Part shown: positions 13,455 to 55,867 of the stretch, in pieces | Layout of the letters: each line of letters starts with the position of its first letter | Position numbering within the stretch: the stretch's first letter is position 1 | Assembly (NCBI GenBank): GCA_027019175.1 | Contig: JALUXB010000006.1 | Location: 1-63,856, forward strand | Source: Sulfurovum sp. | GTDB taxonomy: Bacteria; Campylobacterota; Campylobacteria; Campylobacterales; Sulfurovaceae | DNA length: 63,856 bases | Reading direction: 5' to 3' | Notes under the pieces: model-generated | Databases searched by the model: none | What the model was told of the DNA's origin: nothing | What the model saw: the letters and a program-made list of their open reading frames with translations, nothing else | Made by a program: the position numbers and the translations under genes

Positions 13455-13616
13455 TCATGCTCCTTCTTCTTGAAGGTCAGCAAAGCCGACCGCCAATTCA
13501 TTTACTAAAGCTTCACCTGAGGCTCAGAATGCTTCAATAAAAGATCTTTTAATATTCGTCCACTGTCACTGAACTTAAATAAATCACCGACCGGAGATTT
13601 ATTCAAACCCAGTACC

Positions 13617-13638
13617 GGTGCGTGACTACGCACCCTAC
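13617..13638. repeat. Hairpin repeat (GGTG-n-CACCCTAC family), single copy
   Basis: The sequence ggtgcgtgactacgcaccct followed by ac forms a 7-bp stem with a 4-nt loop plus the CTAC tail. It belongs to the same family as the paired elements at 24519, 40135, 42826, 44285 and 45680. It lies in the dxs-metK gap, next to a heptamer array. Confidence 0.6.
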
Positions 13639-13644
13639 ACACCA

Positions 13645-13665
13645 AATTTCTAATTTCTAATTTCT
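13645..13665. repeat. Heptanucleotide array AATTTCT x3 across the dxs stop
   Basis: Three perfect 7-bp copies (plus a partial AATTT) encode the last residues of Dxs (KLEIRN) and its TAG stop on the minus strand. Copy-number change would alter the C-terminus because 7 is not a multiple of 3. Confidence 0.75.
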
Positions 13666-49817: not shown

Positions 49818-50629
49818 CAGTAGCTATGCTCGGTATCTGGAAATTGACGTGCTTTGACCTCTTTGACATACGCTTCGAGCCCATCACGCACCTCTTTGGC
49901 ACCGTTACAGTAGCGTTTGACAAATTTTGGCTTGAAGGCTTCGAAGAATCCGAACATATCGCTCCATACCAATACCTGACCGTCGGTGACATTACCGGCG
50001 CCAATACCGATGGTCGGTACCTTGACCGCCTCTGTCACTGCTTTGGCGGCTTCAGACTTGACACCTTCCACCAGCACTATTGCCGCACCTGCCGCTTCAA
50101 GCTCCAGGGCATCTTCAACTAAGCGCTTGATATCCTCTTCATCTTTGCCCCGCACTTTGTAACCGCCTTCGCTTCGCACGTGCTGAGGCATCAACCCGAT
50201 GTGTGCGACAACCGCAATACCGTTATCCGCAAGGGTACGTACAATATCGGCCTTTTCTCTGCCCCCTTCTATCTTGACAGCCTGTGCACATGTTTCACGA
50301 TAGACACGGGTGGCATTCTCAAGCGCAACCTGTGGTGTTGTGTAGCTGCCAAAGGGCATATCGAAAACAATACACGCATGTTTTGCCCCGTTACAGACTG
50401 CCTGCGTGTGGTAGACCATCTGATCCATCGTGGCCGAGAGGGTATCATCTTTACCCAGAAAGCTCATATTGAGGCTGTCTCCGACAAGGATCATCTCTAC
50501 CTCACCGTCAAAAAGCTGCGCAAAAAGCGCATCGTATGCCGTTACCATCGTGATGGGCTCGACCCCTTTCATCGCGGCAACCGTACTCATGGTTATTTTT
50601 TTGTCAATACGCGGTGTATGGATGCTCAT
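49817..50629 (-). CDS. panB: 3-methyl-2-oxobutanoate hydroxymethyltransferase
   Basis: A 270-residue enzyme of pantothenate synthesis. Visible are [45 protein letters not shown], and ATVLVEGV-like IVLVEGV with TIGIGAG. No other pan genes are nearby. Confidence 0.95.
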
Positions 50630-50648
50630 AAAAAACGCCTTTGGAGTT

Positions 50649-50683
50649 TGATTGATGGTTGATAATTGATGATTGATAATTGG
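50649..50683. repeat. Degenerate heptanucleotide array TRRTTGA x5
   Basis: TGATTGA, TGGTTGA, TAATTGA, TGATTGA, TAATTGG in the panB-trpA divergent gap. Confidence 0.65.
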
Positions 50684-50782: not shown

Positions 50783-51523
50783 TTGAAAAAATTAGTTGCC
50801 TATATCACAACCGGATTCCCTTCACTCGATTTTACTGTAGATGCTGCACTCGCACTTGCCGAGGCTGGTGTAGACACCCTTGAGCTTGGCATGCCTTTCT
50901 CCGACCCTGTCGCTGACGGTCCTGTTATTGAAGCTGCAAACCTTAAAGCGCTGCAAAACGGCTTCAGGCTGCAGCACCTGTTCGATGCATCAGAAAAGAT
51001 CGCACCCCACATCGATACGCTCTGGATGGGATACTTCAACCCTTTCTACCATAAAGGTATGGAAACATTCATTACCGAAGCGAAGCAAAGCGGCGTCAAC
51101 GGATTCATCATTCCCGACCTGCCTTTTGAAGAGGCACAGCCCTACAAACCTTCCGTAGAGGAAGCAGGACTCAGCCTCATCGACTTCATTGCACCGACCG
51201 ATTCCAAAGAGCGTATTGCCCAAATCGTACCCGATGCCAAAAAGTTCATCTACCTCGTCGCCTATGCCGGTATTACCGGGGCTGGCAAAAGCGAAGACCT
51301 GCAGGAGATTGTTGCGAACATCAAAGCCCACACCCAGACACCTGTGTATGTCGGGTTTGGCGTTGATACACACACAGCACAAGAGAAAGCAAAAGGGGTT
51401 GACGGCGTGATTGTCGGATCAGCATTTGTCAAAGTACTGCTTGACGACACCCTGAATGGTACACAGAAAATTGCCAAAATTTCCGAAATTGCCAAAGAGA
51501 TCAAAGAGAAGATCAACGCATAA
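50783..51523 (+). CDS. trpA: Tryptophan synthase alpha subunit
   Basis: A 246-residue TIM barrel converting indole-3-glycerol phosphate to indole. Visible are LELGMPFSDPVADGP (catalytic Glu), IIPDLPFEEA, IDFIAPTDSKERI, VAYAGITGAG and VGFGVDT. It starts with TTG. No trpB lies beside it, so trp genes are dispersed. Confidence 0.94.
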   Translation: MKKLVAYITTGFPSLDFTVDAALALAEAGVDTLELGMPFSDPVADGPVIEAANLKALQNGFRLQHLFDASEKIAPHIDTLWMGYFNPFYHKGMETFITEAKQSGVNGFIIPDLPFEEAQPYKPSVEEAGLSLIDFIAPTDSKERIAQIVPDAKKFIYLVAYAGITGAGKSEDLQEIVANIKAHTQTPVYVGFGVDTHTAQEKAKGVDGVIVGSAFVKVLLDDTLNGTQKIAKISEIAKEIKEKINA

Positions 51524-51549
51524 CCGCTGCGTGGTTAAAACTTTTCGAG

Positions 51550-51555
51550 TATAAT
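51550..51555 (+). promoter_or_regulatory. -10 box of lgt
   Basis: TATAAT about 28 nt before the lgt start codon. Confidence 0.5.
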
Positions 51556-51583
51556 ACCTCCATTCCATCTAAAGAGGTATGCT

Positions 51584-52393
51584 TTGACACATTTCGTCTG
51601 GAACATCGATCCGGTTCTTCTCCATCTTGGCCCCCTGCAGCTGCGCTGGTACGGCCTGCTCTTTGTCGGCTCCTTTTTTCTCGGTCTGCTGCTTCTGCAG
51701 TACATTTTCAAACGTGAAGGGAAAGACCCTGCACTGCTTGATACATTCCTTGTCTATATTATGATCGGGGCCGTTGTCGGTGCCAGGCTGATGCACTGTT
51801 TTGCCTACGAACCGGCTTTCTACCTCTCCCATCCGCTCGAAATACTGAAAATCTGGAAAGGCGGTTTGGCAAGCCACGGCGGTCTGATAGGCTCCATTCT
51901 TGCCATCTGGCTTTTCAGCAGAAAATACCGTTTCGATTTTATGTGGCTGCTCTCGCGTACTGCTATTGCCGGCACTATCACCGCGGCATTCGTACGTTTT
52001 GGCAACTTCTTCAACTCAGAAATCCTCGGCAAACCGACCGATCTGCCCTGGGCAGTCATCTTCGAACGTGTTGACATGCTTCCCCGTCATCCTGTCCAGC
52101 TCTATGAAGCCTTCAGCTATCTCGTACTTTTTGCAATCATGATGCTGGTCTACCTCAACACCAAACCCAAAACCGCTACACAGCTGCTTCCCGGCATCTT
52201 TCTGACCTACATGTTCACAGTCCGCTTTCTGCTTGAATACACCAAAACCAAACAGGCCGACTACACCTGGGATCTTCCTCTCACCACCGGCCAGGCACTC
52301 AGCCTTCCCTTCATCCTCATAGGCATCCTCTGGCTCCTCTACGCCTGGAGACAGATACAAAAAGAGAAGTCAGGAGCGCACAATGCACCCTAA
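51584..52393 (+). CDS. lgt: Prolipoprotein diacylglyceryl transferase
   Basis: A 269-residue inner-membrane enzyme with seven helices. Visible are LQLRWYGLLF, GARLMHCFAYEP, the KGGLASHGGLIGS signature, RFGNFFNSEILGKPTD and PVQLYEA. It adds diacylglycerol to lipobox cysteines. It starts with TTG behind AAAGAGG. Confidence 0.94.
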   Translation: MTHFVWNIDPVLLHLGPLQLRWYGLLFVGSFFLGLLLLQYIFKREGKDPALLDTFLVYIMIGAVVGARLMHCFAYEPAFYLSHPLEILKIWKGGLASHGGLIGSILAIWLFSRKYRFDFMWLLSRTAIAGTITAAFVRFGNFFNSEILGKPTDLPWAVIFERVDMLPRHPVQLYEAFSYLVLFAIMMLVYLNTKPKTATQLLPGIFLTYMFTVRFLLEYTKTKQADYTWDLPLTTGQALSLPFILIGILWLLYAWRQIQKEKSGAHNAP

Positions 52394-52407
52394 CACATCC
52401 AATAAAA

Positions 52408-52424
52408 GCGTTGCAAAGCAACGC
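52408..52424. repeat. Short perfect hairpin after lgt
   Basis: GCGTTGC-AAA-GCAACGC, 15 bp after the lgt stop. No T-run follows, so it is a doubtful terminator. Confidence 0.4.
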
Positions 52425-52436
52425 ATACCACACCCT

Positions 52437-52464
52437 CTCAATCCTCAATCCTCAATCCTCAATC
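52437..52464. repeat. Heptanucleotide array CTCAATC x4
   Basis: Four perfect copies end one base before the hairpin that covers the activase start codon. Confidence 0.8.
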
Positions 52465-52505
52465 CTAACGCGTACATTCAAAGGAAATTTGAATGTACGC
52501 GTTAG
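52465..52505 (+). promoter_or_regulatory. 18-bp perfect hairpin over ribosome binding site and start codon
   Basis: Left arm 52465-52482 (CTAACGCGTACATTCAAA), loop GGAAA, and right arm 52488-52505 are perfectly complementary. The Shine-Dalgarno (AAAGGAAA) lies in the loop and ATG (52493) in the right arm. Such a stem should strongly block initiation unless opened. Confidence 0.8.
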
Positions 52506-55500
52506 GCATCGACATCGGCTCCACTACCGTCAAGTACGTCCTCTGCGACAAAGACTTCAACATTGTCGCCAAAGCCTACACTCCCCACGATACCAAACAG
52601 GCTCCCACCCTTCTGAAACTGCTTGAAACACTTTCACAAACCCACAAAGAAGCATATGACAATATTGGGAAAGTCTACATTACCGGTTCTGGTGCAAGCC
52701 GCATCGCGCCGACTCTCAATGCCCGTTTTGTGCAGGAGGTCAATGCCGTTGTGCTTGCCGTAGAGCATCTCCACCCCGATGTCCGCTCCGTTGTCGAACT
52801 GGGCGGACAGGATGCGAAGATCATCCACTTCAAAGAGAGTGAGGATGGTAAAAAGACGGTACTCACCTCCATGAATGACAAATGCGCTTCAGGTACCGGA
52901 GCGACGATCGAGAAGTGTACGATGAAGGTGGGTATGGAGCCTGAAGAGGCATCGAAACTTGCATTCAGTGCCCAAAAACTGCACCATGTTGCCGCAAAGT
53001 GCGGGGTTTTTGCCGAAACTGATATTGTCAACCTCGTCAAAACCTCTGTACCTGCCAATGAGATCATGAACTCACTGGCCGATGCCATTGTCATGCAGAA
53101 CCTTACAGTACTCACCCGAGGCAATACGCTGATGCCAAAGGTTCTGCTGCTTGGCGGTCCCAATACCTACCTGCCCTTTTTGCAGGAGTGCTGGCGCATG
53201 CGCATCGCCGAGCTCTGGGATGAACGCGGCATTGCCTACGACAAGGAAAAGCTTGAAAAACTCATCATCGTTCCTGACAATGCCCAGTACTACGCAGCCC
53301 TTGGCGCGGTCATTTTCGGAGAGGGCGAAGCCAATCATGACAAATGTTTTAGCGGGCTTATTGCGCTCAAAACACTGGTTGAAAGCAGTGGTGCGGGAGA
53401 AAGTGACACTGTCGATGCACCCCTGGTACAGAGCAAAGCAGACCTTGAAGCATTTCAAAAACGCTACACCATCCCTCCCTTCATCCCGCCAAAACCTACT
53501 TCCAAAACTGTCTGCTTTCTTGGCATTGACGGCGGTTCTACCTCTTCCAAAGCCGTGCTGGTCAATGAAAAAGGTGAATTGATGCTGAAGGTCTACCAGC
53601 TCTCCAAAGGTAACCCCATCGCCGATACGGTCGAACTGCTTCAGAAGATCAAAGCACAGGATCCCGAAAGTCACTATGACATCAGAGGGCTTGGTGTCAC
53701 CGGCTACGCCGCAGATGTTTTGGAGGGGGCGCTCAGAGCCGATGCGAATATCATCGAAACCATCGCCCATATGAAGAGCGCACAGGCAGCCTTTGGCACA
53801 AGTGTGGATGTCATCTGCGACATCGGCGGGCAGGATATCAAGGTACTCTTCATGGAGAACGGCATGATGAAGAACTTCCGTCTCTCCAACCAGTGCAGTG
53901 CGGGCAACGGTACACTCTTGCAGAGTATGGCCAAACAGTTCGGTGTTCCTGTCGAAAAATATGCCGAGGTAGCATTTGAAGCCAAACAGGCACCAAGGTT
54001 CAACTACGGCTGTGCCGTCTTCCTCGATACCGACCGGGTCAACTTCCAGAAAGAGGGCTACACCAAAGAGGAACTCTTTGCCGGTATTGCCAAAGTACTT
54101 CCAAAGAATGTCTGGCAGTACGTGGTACAGGCTCCAAACCTTGCGATGCTCGGCCGTCACTTTGTCCTTCAGGGCGGCACACAGTACAATCAGGCAGCCC
54201 TCAAAGCACAGGTAGACTACATCCGCTCCCAGGTACCCGATGCTACTGTCGACGTACACCCCCACCCCGGTGAAGCCGGTGCCATCGGTGCAGCACTCGA
54301 AGCGCTCCACAGTGTCAATGCACGCGGCTACGCTACCTTTGTAGGGCTGGAAGAGGCGCTGCAGATGACCTATACCTCACGCACCGACGAAGAGACACGC
54401 TGCCGCTTTTGCTCCATCAACTGCTCCCGTACCTTCATAGACACACAAACCCCTTCTGGAAACAGTGCACGCTATATTGCAGGGTTTTCCTGCGAAGACG
54501 GCACAGTCGAATCGGTCGATGCGCTTAAAAGTCTGAGGGCATCCAGAAAATCCCTCCAGGAGAGTGTCCCCAACCTCGTTAGAAAAGAGGCCGAAAAGCT
54601 CTTTGCACCCCTCTACACCCCCAATGCAAAACCGACACCCGAACACCACATCGAAGAACAGCGGGTACGTGTGACACTCGGAGGATGGGGTCCCACACTC
54701 CGCACAACACAAAAACGCCCTTTTCAGACCAGCTCCGCAGAAGATGCCGCTTACCGTGAATCGCTTACCATTGCCATTCCAAAAGTACTTAACGTCTACT
54801 CCCTTGCCCCCTTTTTGCGTACCTATCTCGAAGCACTGGGCATACAGCGCCACAACATCCTTTTTTCAACTTTTTCTAACGAAGATATGTACCTCGAAGG
54901 TGCCAAATACGGCTCGGTAGACAGCTGCTACCCGGCAAAAGTGGCACAGTCACATGTCTATCAGCTGCTTTTTGCAAAAAAATATGCCAAAAAAGGCATA
55001 GACTACCTCTGGTTCCCTGCCGTCACCCATCTGCCCGGCTACGTAACGCACTCAATGGGACAAACCTCCTGTCCCATTGTCTCGGGTACCCCCAAAGTAG
55101 TCTATTCTGCTTTTACCAAAGAGCGCAACCTCTTTAGCGAAAAAAACATTACCTTTGTAGACGAAGCCCTTGACTTCGACAACCGGGCACTGCTCAAAGC
55201 ACAGCTTTTCGATATCTGGGGCAAACGGCTGCGCATCACCAAAGATGAAAGCGACTGGGCTGCTGAAGAGGGTTGGAAAGCACTGGCACAGCAGGATACA
55301 CAGATTATGCAGGAGGGTAGAAACATACTCGATGAGGCAGAAGCAAACGGCGAAGTGGTCATTTTGATGCTGGGACGCCCTTACCATTCTGACCCCGGGC
55401 TCAACCACGAAGTACTCGATGAGTTCCAGTCTCTGGGCTTCAAGACCCTCTCGATGCGTGCCGTTCCTAAAGAGCACAACTACCTGATGCGCTTTTTTGG

Positions 55501-55867
55501 AAAAGATGTAGAAGCGGGAATCATTGCCGATGTGTTCGACATCCGTGATGTCTGGAAAGAGAACTTTTCAACCAATTCAGCACAAAAAGTCTGGGCTGCC
55601 AAATTTGCCGCCCGCCACCCCAATGTTGCCGTACTCGACCTAAGCAGCTTCAAGTGCGGCCACGATGCCCCCACCTATGCCATCATTGACAAGATTCTTG
55701 GTGCTTCACGCACCCCACACCTGCCCCTGCATGACATCGATGCCAACAAACCCGGCGGCTCTATCAAGATCCGTGTCAAAACCTTTGCCTACACACTCGA
55801 ACAATACGCGGAGGAATTAAAAATTAAAAGGGAAAAATTAAATTTAGCCCGAGGAGATTTCCAATGA
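52493..55867 (+). CDS. Acyl-CoA dehydratase activase (two BcrAD/BadFG ATPase domains plus DUF2229)
   Basis: A 1124-residue protein. ASKHA ATPase domain 1 spans ~1-260 (LGIDIGSTTVKYVL, ELGGQDAKII, NDKCASGTGATIEK). Domain 2 spans ~340-590 (FLGIDGGSTSSKAVL, DIGGQDIKVLF, NQCSAGNGTL). DUF2229 follows (~640-1100) with CRFCSINCSRTF, SCYPAKVAQSH and a CGHDAPTY end. Related activators use ATP to inject electrons through a 4Fe-4S cluster into 2-hydroxyacyl-CoA dehydratases. Four bases overlap the next gene. The last codons lie in an ATTAAAA-type heptamer array. Confidence 0.88.
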   Translation: MYALGIDIGSTTVKYVLCDKDFNIVAKAYTPHDTKQAPTLLKLLETLSQTHKEAYDNIGKVYITGSGASRIAPTLNARFVQEVNAVVLAVEHLHPDVRSVVELGGQDAKIIHFKESEDGKKTVLTSMNDKCASGTGATIEKCTMKVGMEPEEASKLAFSAQKLHHVAAKCGVFAETDIVNLVKTSVPANEIMNSLADAIVMQNLTVLTRGNTLMPKVLLLGGPNTYLPFLQECWRMRIAELWDERGIAYDKEKLEKLIIVPDNAQYYAALGAVIFGEGEANHDKCFSGLIALKTLVESSGAGESDTVDAPLVQSKADLEAFQKRYTIPPFIPPKPTSKTVCFLGIDGGSTSSKAVLVNEKGELMLKVYQLSKGNPIADTVELLQKIKAQDPESHYDIRGLGVTGYAADVLEGALRADANIIETIAHMKSAQAAFGTSVDVICDIGGQDIKVLFMENGMMKNFRLSNQCSAGNGTLLQSMAKQFGVPVEKYAEVAFEAKQAPRFNYGCAVFLDTDRVNFQKEGYTKEELFAGIAKVLPKNVWQYVVQAPNLAMLGRHFVLQGGTQYNQAALKAQVDYIRSQVPDATVDVHPHPGEAGAIGAALEALHSVNARGYATFVGLEEALQMTYTSRTDEETRCRFCSINCSRTFIDTQTPSGNSARYIAGFSCEDGTVESVDALKSLRASRKSLQESVPNLVRKEAEKLFAPLYTPNAKPTPEHHIEEQRVRVTLGGWGPTLRTTQKRPFQTSSAEDAAYRESLTIAIPKVLNVYSLAPFLRTYLEALGIQRHNILFSTFSNEDMYLEGAKYGSVDSCYPAKVAQSHVYQLLFAKKYAKKGIDYLWFPAVTHLPGYVTHSMGQTSCPIVSGTPKVVYSAFTKERNLFSEKNITFVDEALDFDNRALLKAQLFDIWGKRLRITKDESDWAAEEGWKALAQQDTQIMQEGRNILDEAEANGEVVILMLGRPYHSDPGLNHEVLDEFQSLGFKTLSMRAVPKEHNYLMRFFGKDVEAGIIADVFDIRDVWKENFSTNSAQKVWAAKFAARHPNVAVLDLSSFKCGHDAPTYAIIDKILGASRTPHLPLHDIDANKPGGSIKIRVKTFAYTLEQYAEELKIKREKLNLARGDFQ
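55816..55843. repeat. Heptanucleotide array ATTAAAA-type x4 in the activase 3' end
   Basis: ATTAAAA, ATTAAAA, GGGAAAA, ATTAAAT encode part of the C-terminal EELKIKREKLNL. The same 7-bp period recurs at five other places in the window. Confidence 0.5.

Follow-up and report, generated by a model that had tools for sequence, protein, structure and literature searches.

A perfect hairpin over an activase start codon in Sulfurovum sp. belongs to a dispersed heptamer repeat with a flank-derived second hairpin

Why does the start codon of a long gene lie inside a perfect, highly stable hairpin, and does that structure serve the gene it covers or belong to something else? The question is raised by a locus of Sulfurovum sp. 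on contig JALUXB010000006.1 of assembly GCA_027019175.1, analyzed as a single stretch of 63,856 nucleotides that we call the window. Here lgt, encoding prolipoprotein diacylglyceryl transferase (51584-52393, plus strand; an open reading frame matching Pfam PF01790, E = 1.3e-67), lies upstream of a gene on the same strand for an 1124-residue activase with BcrAD_BadFG ATPase domains and DUF2229 (52493-55867; PF01869, E = 7.7e-76; PF09989, E = 1.6e-45). The arms of the hairpin, designated hairpin 2, are CCTAACGCGTACATTCAAA (52464-52482) and TTTGAATGTACGCGTTAGG (52488-52506, containing ATG 52493-52495 and the first activase codons), an exact inverted repeat around the five-nucleotide loop GGAAA. 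The first-pass annotation was right that the pairing is perfect (100% complementary), although the stem is 19 bp rather than 18 bp long, and right that a heptamer array adjoins it (CTCAATC, plus strand, 52437-52466, 4.3 copies with 100% matches). Its placement of the Shine-Dalgarno sequence in the loop and the ATG in the stem needs one amendment: the Shine-Dalgarno AAAGGA and the apical loop share positions 52480-52487, with the GGA in the loop, but its A residues extend into the stem.

The stem has a predicted energy of -29.6 kcal/mol (z = -11.6), with no shuffled sequence equally stable, and a 171-nt context still gives z = -8.3. The runner-up perfect hairpin within the window has 11 bp. A scan of the 1.82 Mb of unmasked sequence in the genome (of 1.85 Mb, N excluded), requiring 12 bp or more per arm and a loop no longer than 12 nt, found 32 perfect hairpins, among which hairpin 2 is the longest except for two GTAGGGTG-type REP palindromes of 22 bp; five of the 32, the activase hairpin included, were flagged as adjoining a heptamer array. 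Hairpin 2 is no assembly artefact, because separate assemblies of related species show hairpins in the same place (L054, 20 bp; L093, 18 bp with two mismatches; L057, 11 bp).

Two other hairpin families of this genome may be recorded here. The 22-bp perfect palindromes, GTAGGGTGCGT...ACGCACCCTAC at L117:9457-9510 and L112:15499-15554, form a separate REP-type family with several shorter copies elsewhere, one of them near window position 13600-13650 beside an AATTTCT array. Four near-identical hairpins of 12-13 bp (GAGAAATATTTGA ccctgcggc TCAAATATTTCTC) at L152:173-207, 623-657, 1066-1100 and 1670-1702, with AACAAATCATTGGA upstream and AACTCAGTCGTTA downstream, resemble an integron-type attC cassette array.

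Seen at this one locus, the structure invites two simple readings. It could be a cis-regulatory RNA switch, kept by selection, that conceals the activase start and is opened by heat, a helicase or a ligand, and the loop position of the Shine-Dalgarno sequence, the ATG in the stem and the energy of -29.6 kcal/mol all suit such a device; an Rfam search of 51500-53500 returned no match at gathering score, and so no RNA thermometer or riboswitch family. Alternatively, an isolated inverted duplication could have arisen by chance or recombination beside a tandem repeat, which a view of the single locus would allow.

A dispersed composite repeat

Upstream of the heptamer array lie stem-loop 1 (52408-52424, plus strand; GCGTTGC AAA GCAACGC, fold -10.5 kcal/mol) and a conserved GCATACC box (52423-52429, plus strand), and the same architecture recurs in other copies. 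The composite repeat consists, in order, of an AAAGC-stem-loop-GCATACC segment, a CTCAHTC-type heptamer array, and an inverted copy of whatever sequence follows; its consensus is AAAGC-stem-loop-GCATACC-(AHTCCTC)n, and the letters of stem-loop 1 differ among copies with pairing preserved. Of 78 genomes searched in the genus, 22 contain a strict pattern, GCATACC followed after 0-30 nt by CTCAHTCCTCAHTC, with up to about ten matches each; in the class, 6 of 397 genomes contain it, and these six fall in two genera belonging to one family. Neither set contained the reversed pattern. The repeat thus belongs to Sulfurovum and one neighboring genus and is not class-wide.

Each array is homogeneous, and the unit varies between copies and between orthologous sites: CTCAATC, CTCATTC, CTCACTC, CTAATTT and others were seen, none of them TAACTGA. 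Further CTCAATC arrays lie on other contigs of the same genome, whose organism groups with Sulfurovum relatives. One of these, C65:554 (minus strand), lies within the phosphohexomutase gene, where a palindrome made of coding sequence, TGGACGCATCGA/TCGATGCGTCCA, follows it; another, C37:44489 (minus strand), lies upstream of coaD with GCATTGCAAAGCAATGCATACC before it, and is followed by a hairpin with a Shine-Dalgarno sequence in its loop and an ATG in its stem. Across the genome, counterparts of hairpin 2 cover the starts of coaD, murB, murD, murI, holA, lon and an agmatine deiminase-like gene, cover the stop codons of fabI, secF and a MoxR-type ATPase gene, and occur in frame inside the phosphohexomutase and CCA tRNA nucleotidyltransferase genes. 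The names given to these repeat-bearing genes are putative family assignments based on the translated sequences rather than on profile searches.

The association of array and hairpin was measured on an unselected set of 33 copies, chosen by stem-loop 1, GCATACC and array, blind to the downstream sequence, with the window copy excluded. Eleven of the 33 (33%) continue from the array end into a perfect hairpin of 8 bp or more, compared with 0.55% of 4000 random genomic positions (binomial P of about 2e-17); about half of the copies show no downstream hairpin above 5 bp. A second sample, 24 arrays from relatives chosen by the array only and sharing a few loci with the 33-copy set, yielded 15 with a hairpin of 6 bp or more, the frequency at random sites being 5.5%. 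This genome- and genus-wide association refutes the chance duplication, which we regard as extremely improbable. The inverted arm always adjoins one particular array end and matches its own flank alone. The proposal that the left arm copies the gene start in inverted orientation is borne out, and relatives without the repeat lack this arm.

Since the same signature appears at gene starts, gene ends and gene interiors, the second hairpin is not gene-specific: built from the host sequence beside the array, it comes with the repeat and was not designed around the activase gene. The proposed shut-off of translation relieved by heat or a helicase finds no support, on the same ground, the identical design being present at 3' ends and in interiors where there is no start to hide, and also because hairpins cover murB, murD, coaD and holA, which must be expressed. 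These four genes are generally held to be essential. The letters and lengths of the hairpins, moreover, vary gene by gene, which also counts against the RNA switch. The case cautions against taking each start-codon hairpin for a regulatory switch.

CTCAHTC arrays contain no stop codons in the direction of the genes, and in the opposite direction carry TGA in every frame if the unit is CTCAYTC, so that the repeat would be tolerable on both sides.

Several arrays are worth listing in their own right. Long arrays of 12-18 units without stem-loop 1, at G000:C65:16193-16280, L117:16137-16249 and L192:12-137, are candidate length-variable loci. In the window itself, a TGATTGA-like heptamer array on the minus strand (50629-50682) lies immediately upstream of a panB-like gene start and is followed by AACTCC-AAA-GGCGTT, with five of six pairs and a Shine-Dalgarno sequence within; it is probably a decayed second copy of this design. 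At L321 (genome G012), a CTCATTC array precedes a 16-bp perfect hairpin, TTCCTGCTATAATTTT gaa AAAATTATAGCAGGAA, that holds a promoter-like TATAAT.

Arms that change together, and how the repeat may move

Orthologous sites were compared across the three nearest genomes. In the activase hairpin of L054 a C-G pair has become A-T, with an accompanying Ala to Ser codon change, and an inner pair is also altered; L057 has a different stem of 11 bp at this site, L093 has two mismatches, and L055 is almost stemless. At the end of fabI, four pairs are altered on both sides, CAAAATAAGTGC becoming CGAAGTAAGCGT together with its partner arm. Double-changed pairs number four at the activase and four at fabI, against zero or one in slid controls, in alignments that are small (four and three sequences). 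The murB, murD and agmatine deiminase sites show additional compensated changes, while the coaD and lon sites show none in the orthologue comparison, their arms having drifted. At secF, in a single case, the four-base loop GTTA has turned into its reverse complement TAAC between species. The heptamer unit, too, is swapped blockwise at orthologous sites: CTCAATC versus CTCAACA at phosphohexomutase, CTCATTC versus CTACCTC at murB, and TTCACTC versus ATTCACT at holA. Blockwise replacement of this kind fits turnover of the arrays by slippage.

Multi-base compensation and loop inversion are known marks of replication template switching (PMC8794818, PMC8604942), and the sites show perfect arms with the one or the other. 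Selection for RNA pairing would also yield compensation, and the double compensatory changes, one of which alters the encoded protein (the Ala to Ser codon), speak for the RNA switch; such selection would not yield loop inversion, however, and is difficult to envisage where the hairpin lies within a gene. With the stem broken in the close relative L093 and nearly absent from L055, with the same array and hairpin at 3' ends and inside genes, and with no Rfam family at the locus, the RNA switch appears quite unlikely. Copying of one arm from the other by DNA polymerase template switching may instead keep the arms perfect, and slippage may turn over the arrays. Dozens of sites in several related species provide a natural series of long perfect hairpins that have arisen again and again and track changes in coding sequence, so that the birth and upkeep of such hairpins become directly testable in Sulfurovum.

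A different possibility is that a specific enzyme of a mobile element makes array and arm together, by fold-back priming at the target end and copying of a heptamer template. The constancy of the arm at one array end, its exclusive match to its own flank, the homogeneity of arrays whose unit differs between copies and orthologous sites, and the presence of the inverted arm in array-only copies lacking stem-loop 1 (C65:554 in algC, and lon) would all be expected of such an enzyme; yet replication template switching plus slippage yields the same pattern enzyme-free, reverse transcriptase is absent from this 99.99% complete genome and several repeat-rich genomes, and the Y1 transposase is missing from 7 of the 22 repeat-positive genomes. 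We rate the enzymatic route as rather unlikely.

Of the two enzymes examined, reverse transcriptase and Y1 transposase, neither tracks the repeat, and no transposition event was observed. Retro-insertion by a reverse transcriptase, comparable to that of LINE and SINE elements with tails ending in short repeats, was rejected, RVT_1 being absent from the genome itself and from G022, G048, G063 and G065. RAYT or IS200-type mobilization was likewise rejected for want of a positive association with Y1_Tnp. Inverted stem-loop-GCATACC pairs bracket the intergenic regions of coaD and agmatine deiminase, with single copies elsewhere, and by analogy these pairs recall the ends of MITEs; no direct target-site duplication was recognized at repeat copies. 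We suggest tentatively that this may be a new type of mobile repeat in bacteria, one that on insertion copies its target flank in inverted form and caps it with a fresh heptamer array. If so, every insertion would bring its own flank-matched hairpin, and heptamers that are stop-free on one strand with stops in all frames opposite would let the repeat sit at starts, ends and interiors with the gene spared.

A displaced start and a leader frame

What, then, becomes of a gene whose start the repeat has reached? The activase of 43 repeat-free relatives starts at or near the end of lgt, often overlapping it, with N-termini such as M-T-K-P-L-I-A-K-Y-A-L-G. For 35 of these relatives, with M-T-K...K-Y N-termini, the distance from the lgt stop to the Tyr codon is at most 46 nt, as against 96-147 nt in five repeat-bearing species, in which the activase begins M-Y-A-L-G or M-Y-S-L-G. 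In the window, a frame of 40 codons (MHPNTSNKSVAKQRIPHPLNPQSSILNPNAYIQRKFECTR, beginning MHPNTSNK) with its own Shine-Dalgarno sequence AGGAG runs on the plus strand from ATG 52383, at the 3' end of lgt, across the repeat and both hairpins to a TAG stop at 52503-52505, 13 nt into the activase. This ATG lies where relatives begin the activase, and it is probably the gene's ancestral start codon.

The frame and its stop at +13 are the same in four species, which include L054, L093 and L026, although the distance spanned is 104, 110 or 116 nt; the L057 leader terminates in TGATG at the activase start. Leaders of coaD end in ATGA, those of holA in TGACATG or TGATG, and those of agmatine deiminase in ATGA or GTGA. 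A frame that crosses the structure and ends at the start was found in five species for the activase, three for coaD, three for holA and two for agmatine deiminase; the lon site showed no long leader. With three frames available, a nearby stop is no rarity, so the coupling seen at any single locus is weak evidence. In phosphohexomutase (algC), CCA-transferase (cca) and murD, the repeat is read through in frame, in three to four species each (for example ...FANYQPIRTLTPNPQSSILNPQLDASIDASIMITGSHNP), and the products of these genes are predicted to carry repeat-encoded insert peptides such as PNPQSSILNPQLDASI.

Melting of a structure by upstream translation is one of two proposed routes of translational coupling (PMC7538156), and the activase is probably still translated by ribosomes arriving from the leader frame. 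The earlier suggestion of a coupled lgt transcript thus points in a useful direction, coupling being supported by the leader from the lgt 3' end in four species, but the coupled frame is not lgt itself.

We consider it probable that three processes met at this locus: insertion of the repeat, copying of the arm by template switching, and rescue of expression by translational coupling. One repeat copy, 52407-52495, would have inserted directly behind the original activase start codon, its right end bearing an inverted copy of the downstream flank and so creating the perfect hairpin. The old ATG would survive as that of a leader frame crossing the hairpin and stopping inside the activase, and leader ribosomes would unfold the stem and reinitiate at the new Shine-Dalgarno sequence and ATG at its apex. 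A repeat may, on this account, sever a gene from its start codon while a coupled restart saves the gene.

Comparison with known systems

A literature search found no description of the composite heptamer repeat in Sulfurovum. GTAG and CGTC repeats of the REP/RAYT kind have been reported in Sulfurovum NBC37-1 (PMC3733652), and these are likewise dispersed short stem-loops of the same genus; they carry a GTAG or CGTC tag, however, whereas stem-loop 1 ends in GCATACC and shows no association with a Y1 transposase. Quasipalindromes produced by template switching (PMC8794818, PMC8604942) share the perfect arms made in one event, the compensatory changes and the loop inversion, but are known as scattered single events, whereas the hairpins of Sulfurovum recur beside one repeat family and at gene borders. 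Translational coupling (PMC7538156) similarly involves a translated upstream frame that traverses a structure hiding the next start, and the short upstream open reading frame of iraD (PMC5574718) is alike in passing through a start-hiding structure; in the Sulfurovum activase, in contrast, the leader is probably the gene's own old start, cut off by the repeat.

The TAACTGA heptamers of Beggiatoaceae, Cyanobacteria and Bacteroidetes also form arrays, mostly directed toward starts and ending just upstream of them, with some inside open reading frames, and a binding-protein role has been proposed for them; their unit is different, and the portion of the report seen (PMC4679880) describes no flank hairpin, GCATACC stem-loop or leader frame. 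Rickettsia palindromic elements and MITE-like repeats (PMC10969869) are, like the Sulfurovum repeat, short, dispersed, rich in hairpins, devoid of a protein of their own and found in frame within genes. The Rickettsia elements, however, are palindromes of their own sequence, whereas the Sulfurovum repeat adds a heptamer array and a second hairpin taken from the host. By its sequence, the Sulfurovum repeat stands outside both the Rickettsia elements and the TAACTGA family, and the flank-derived hairpin is what sets it apart.
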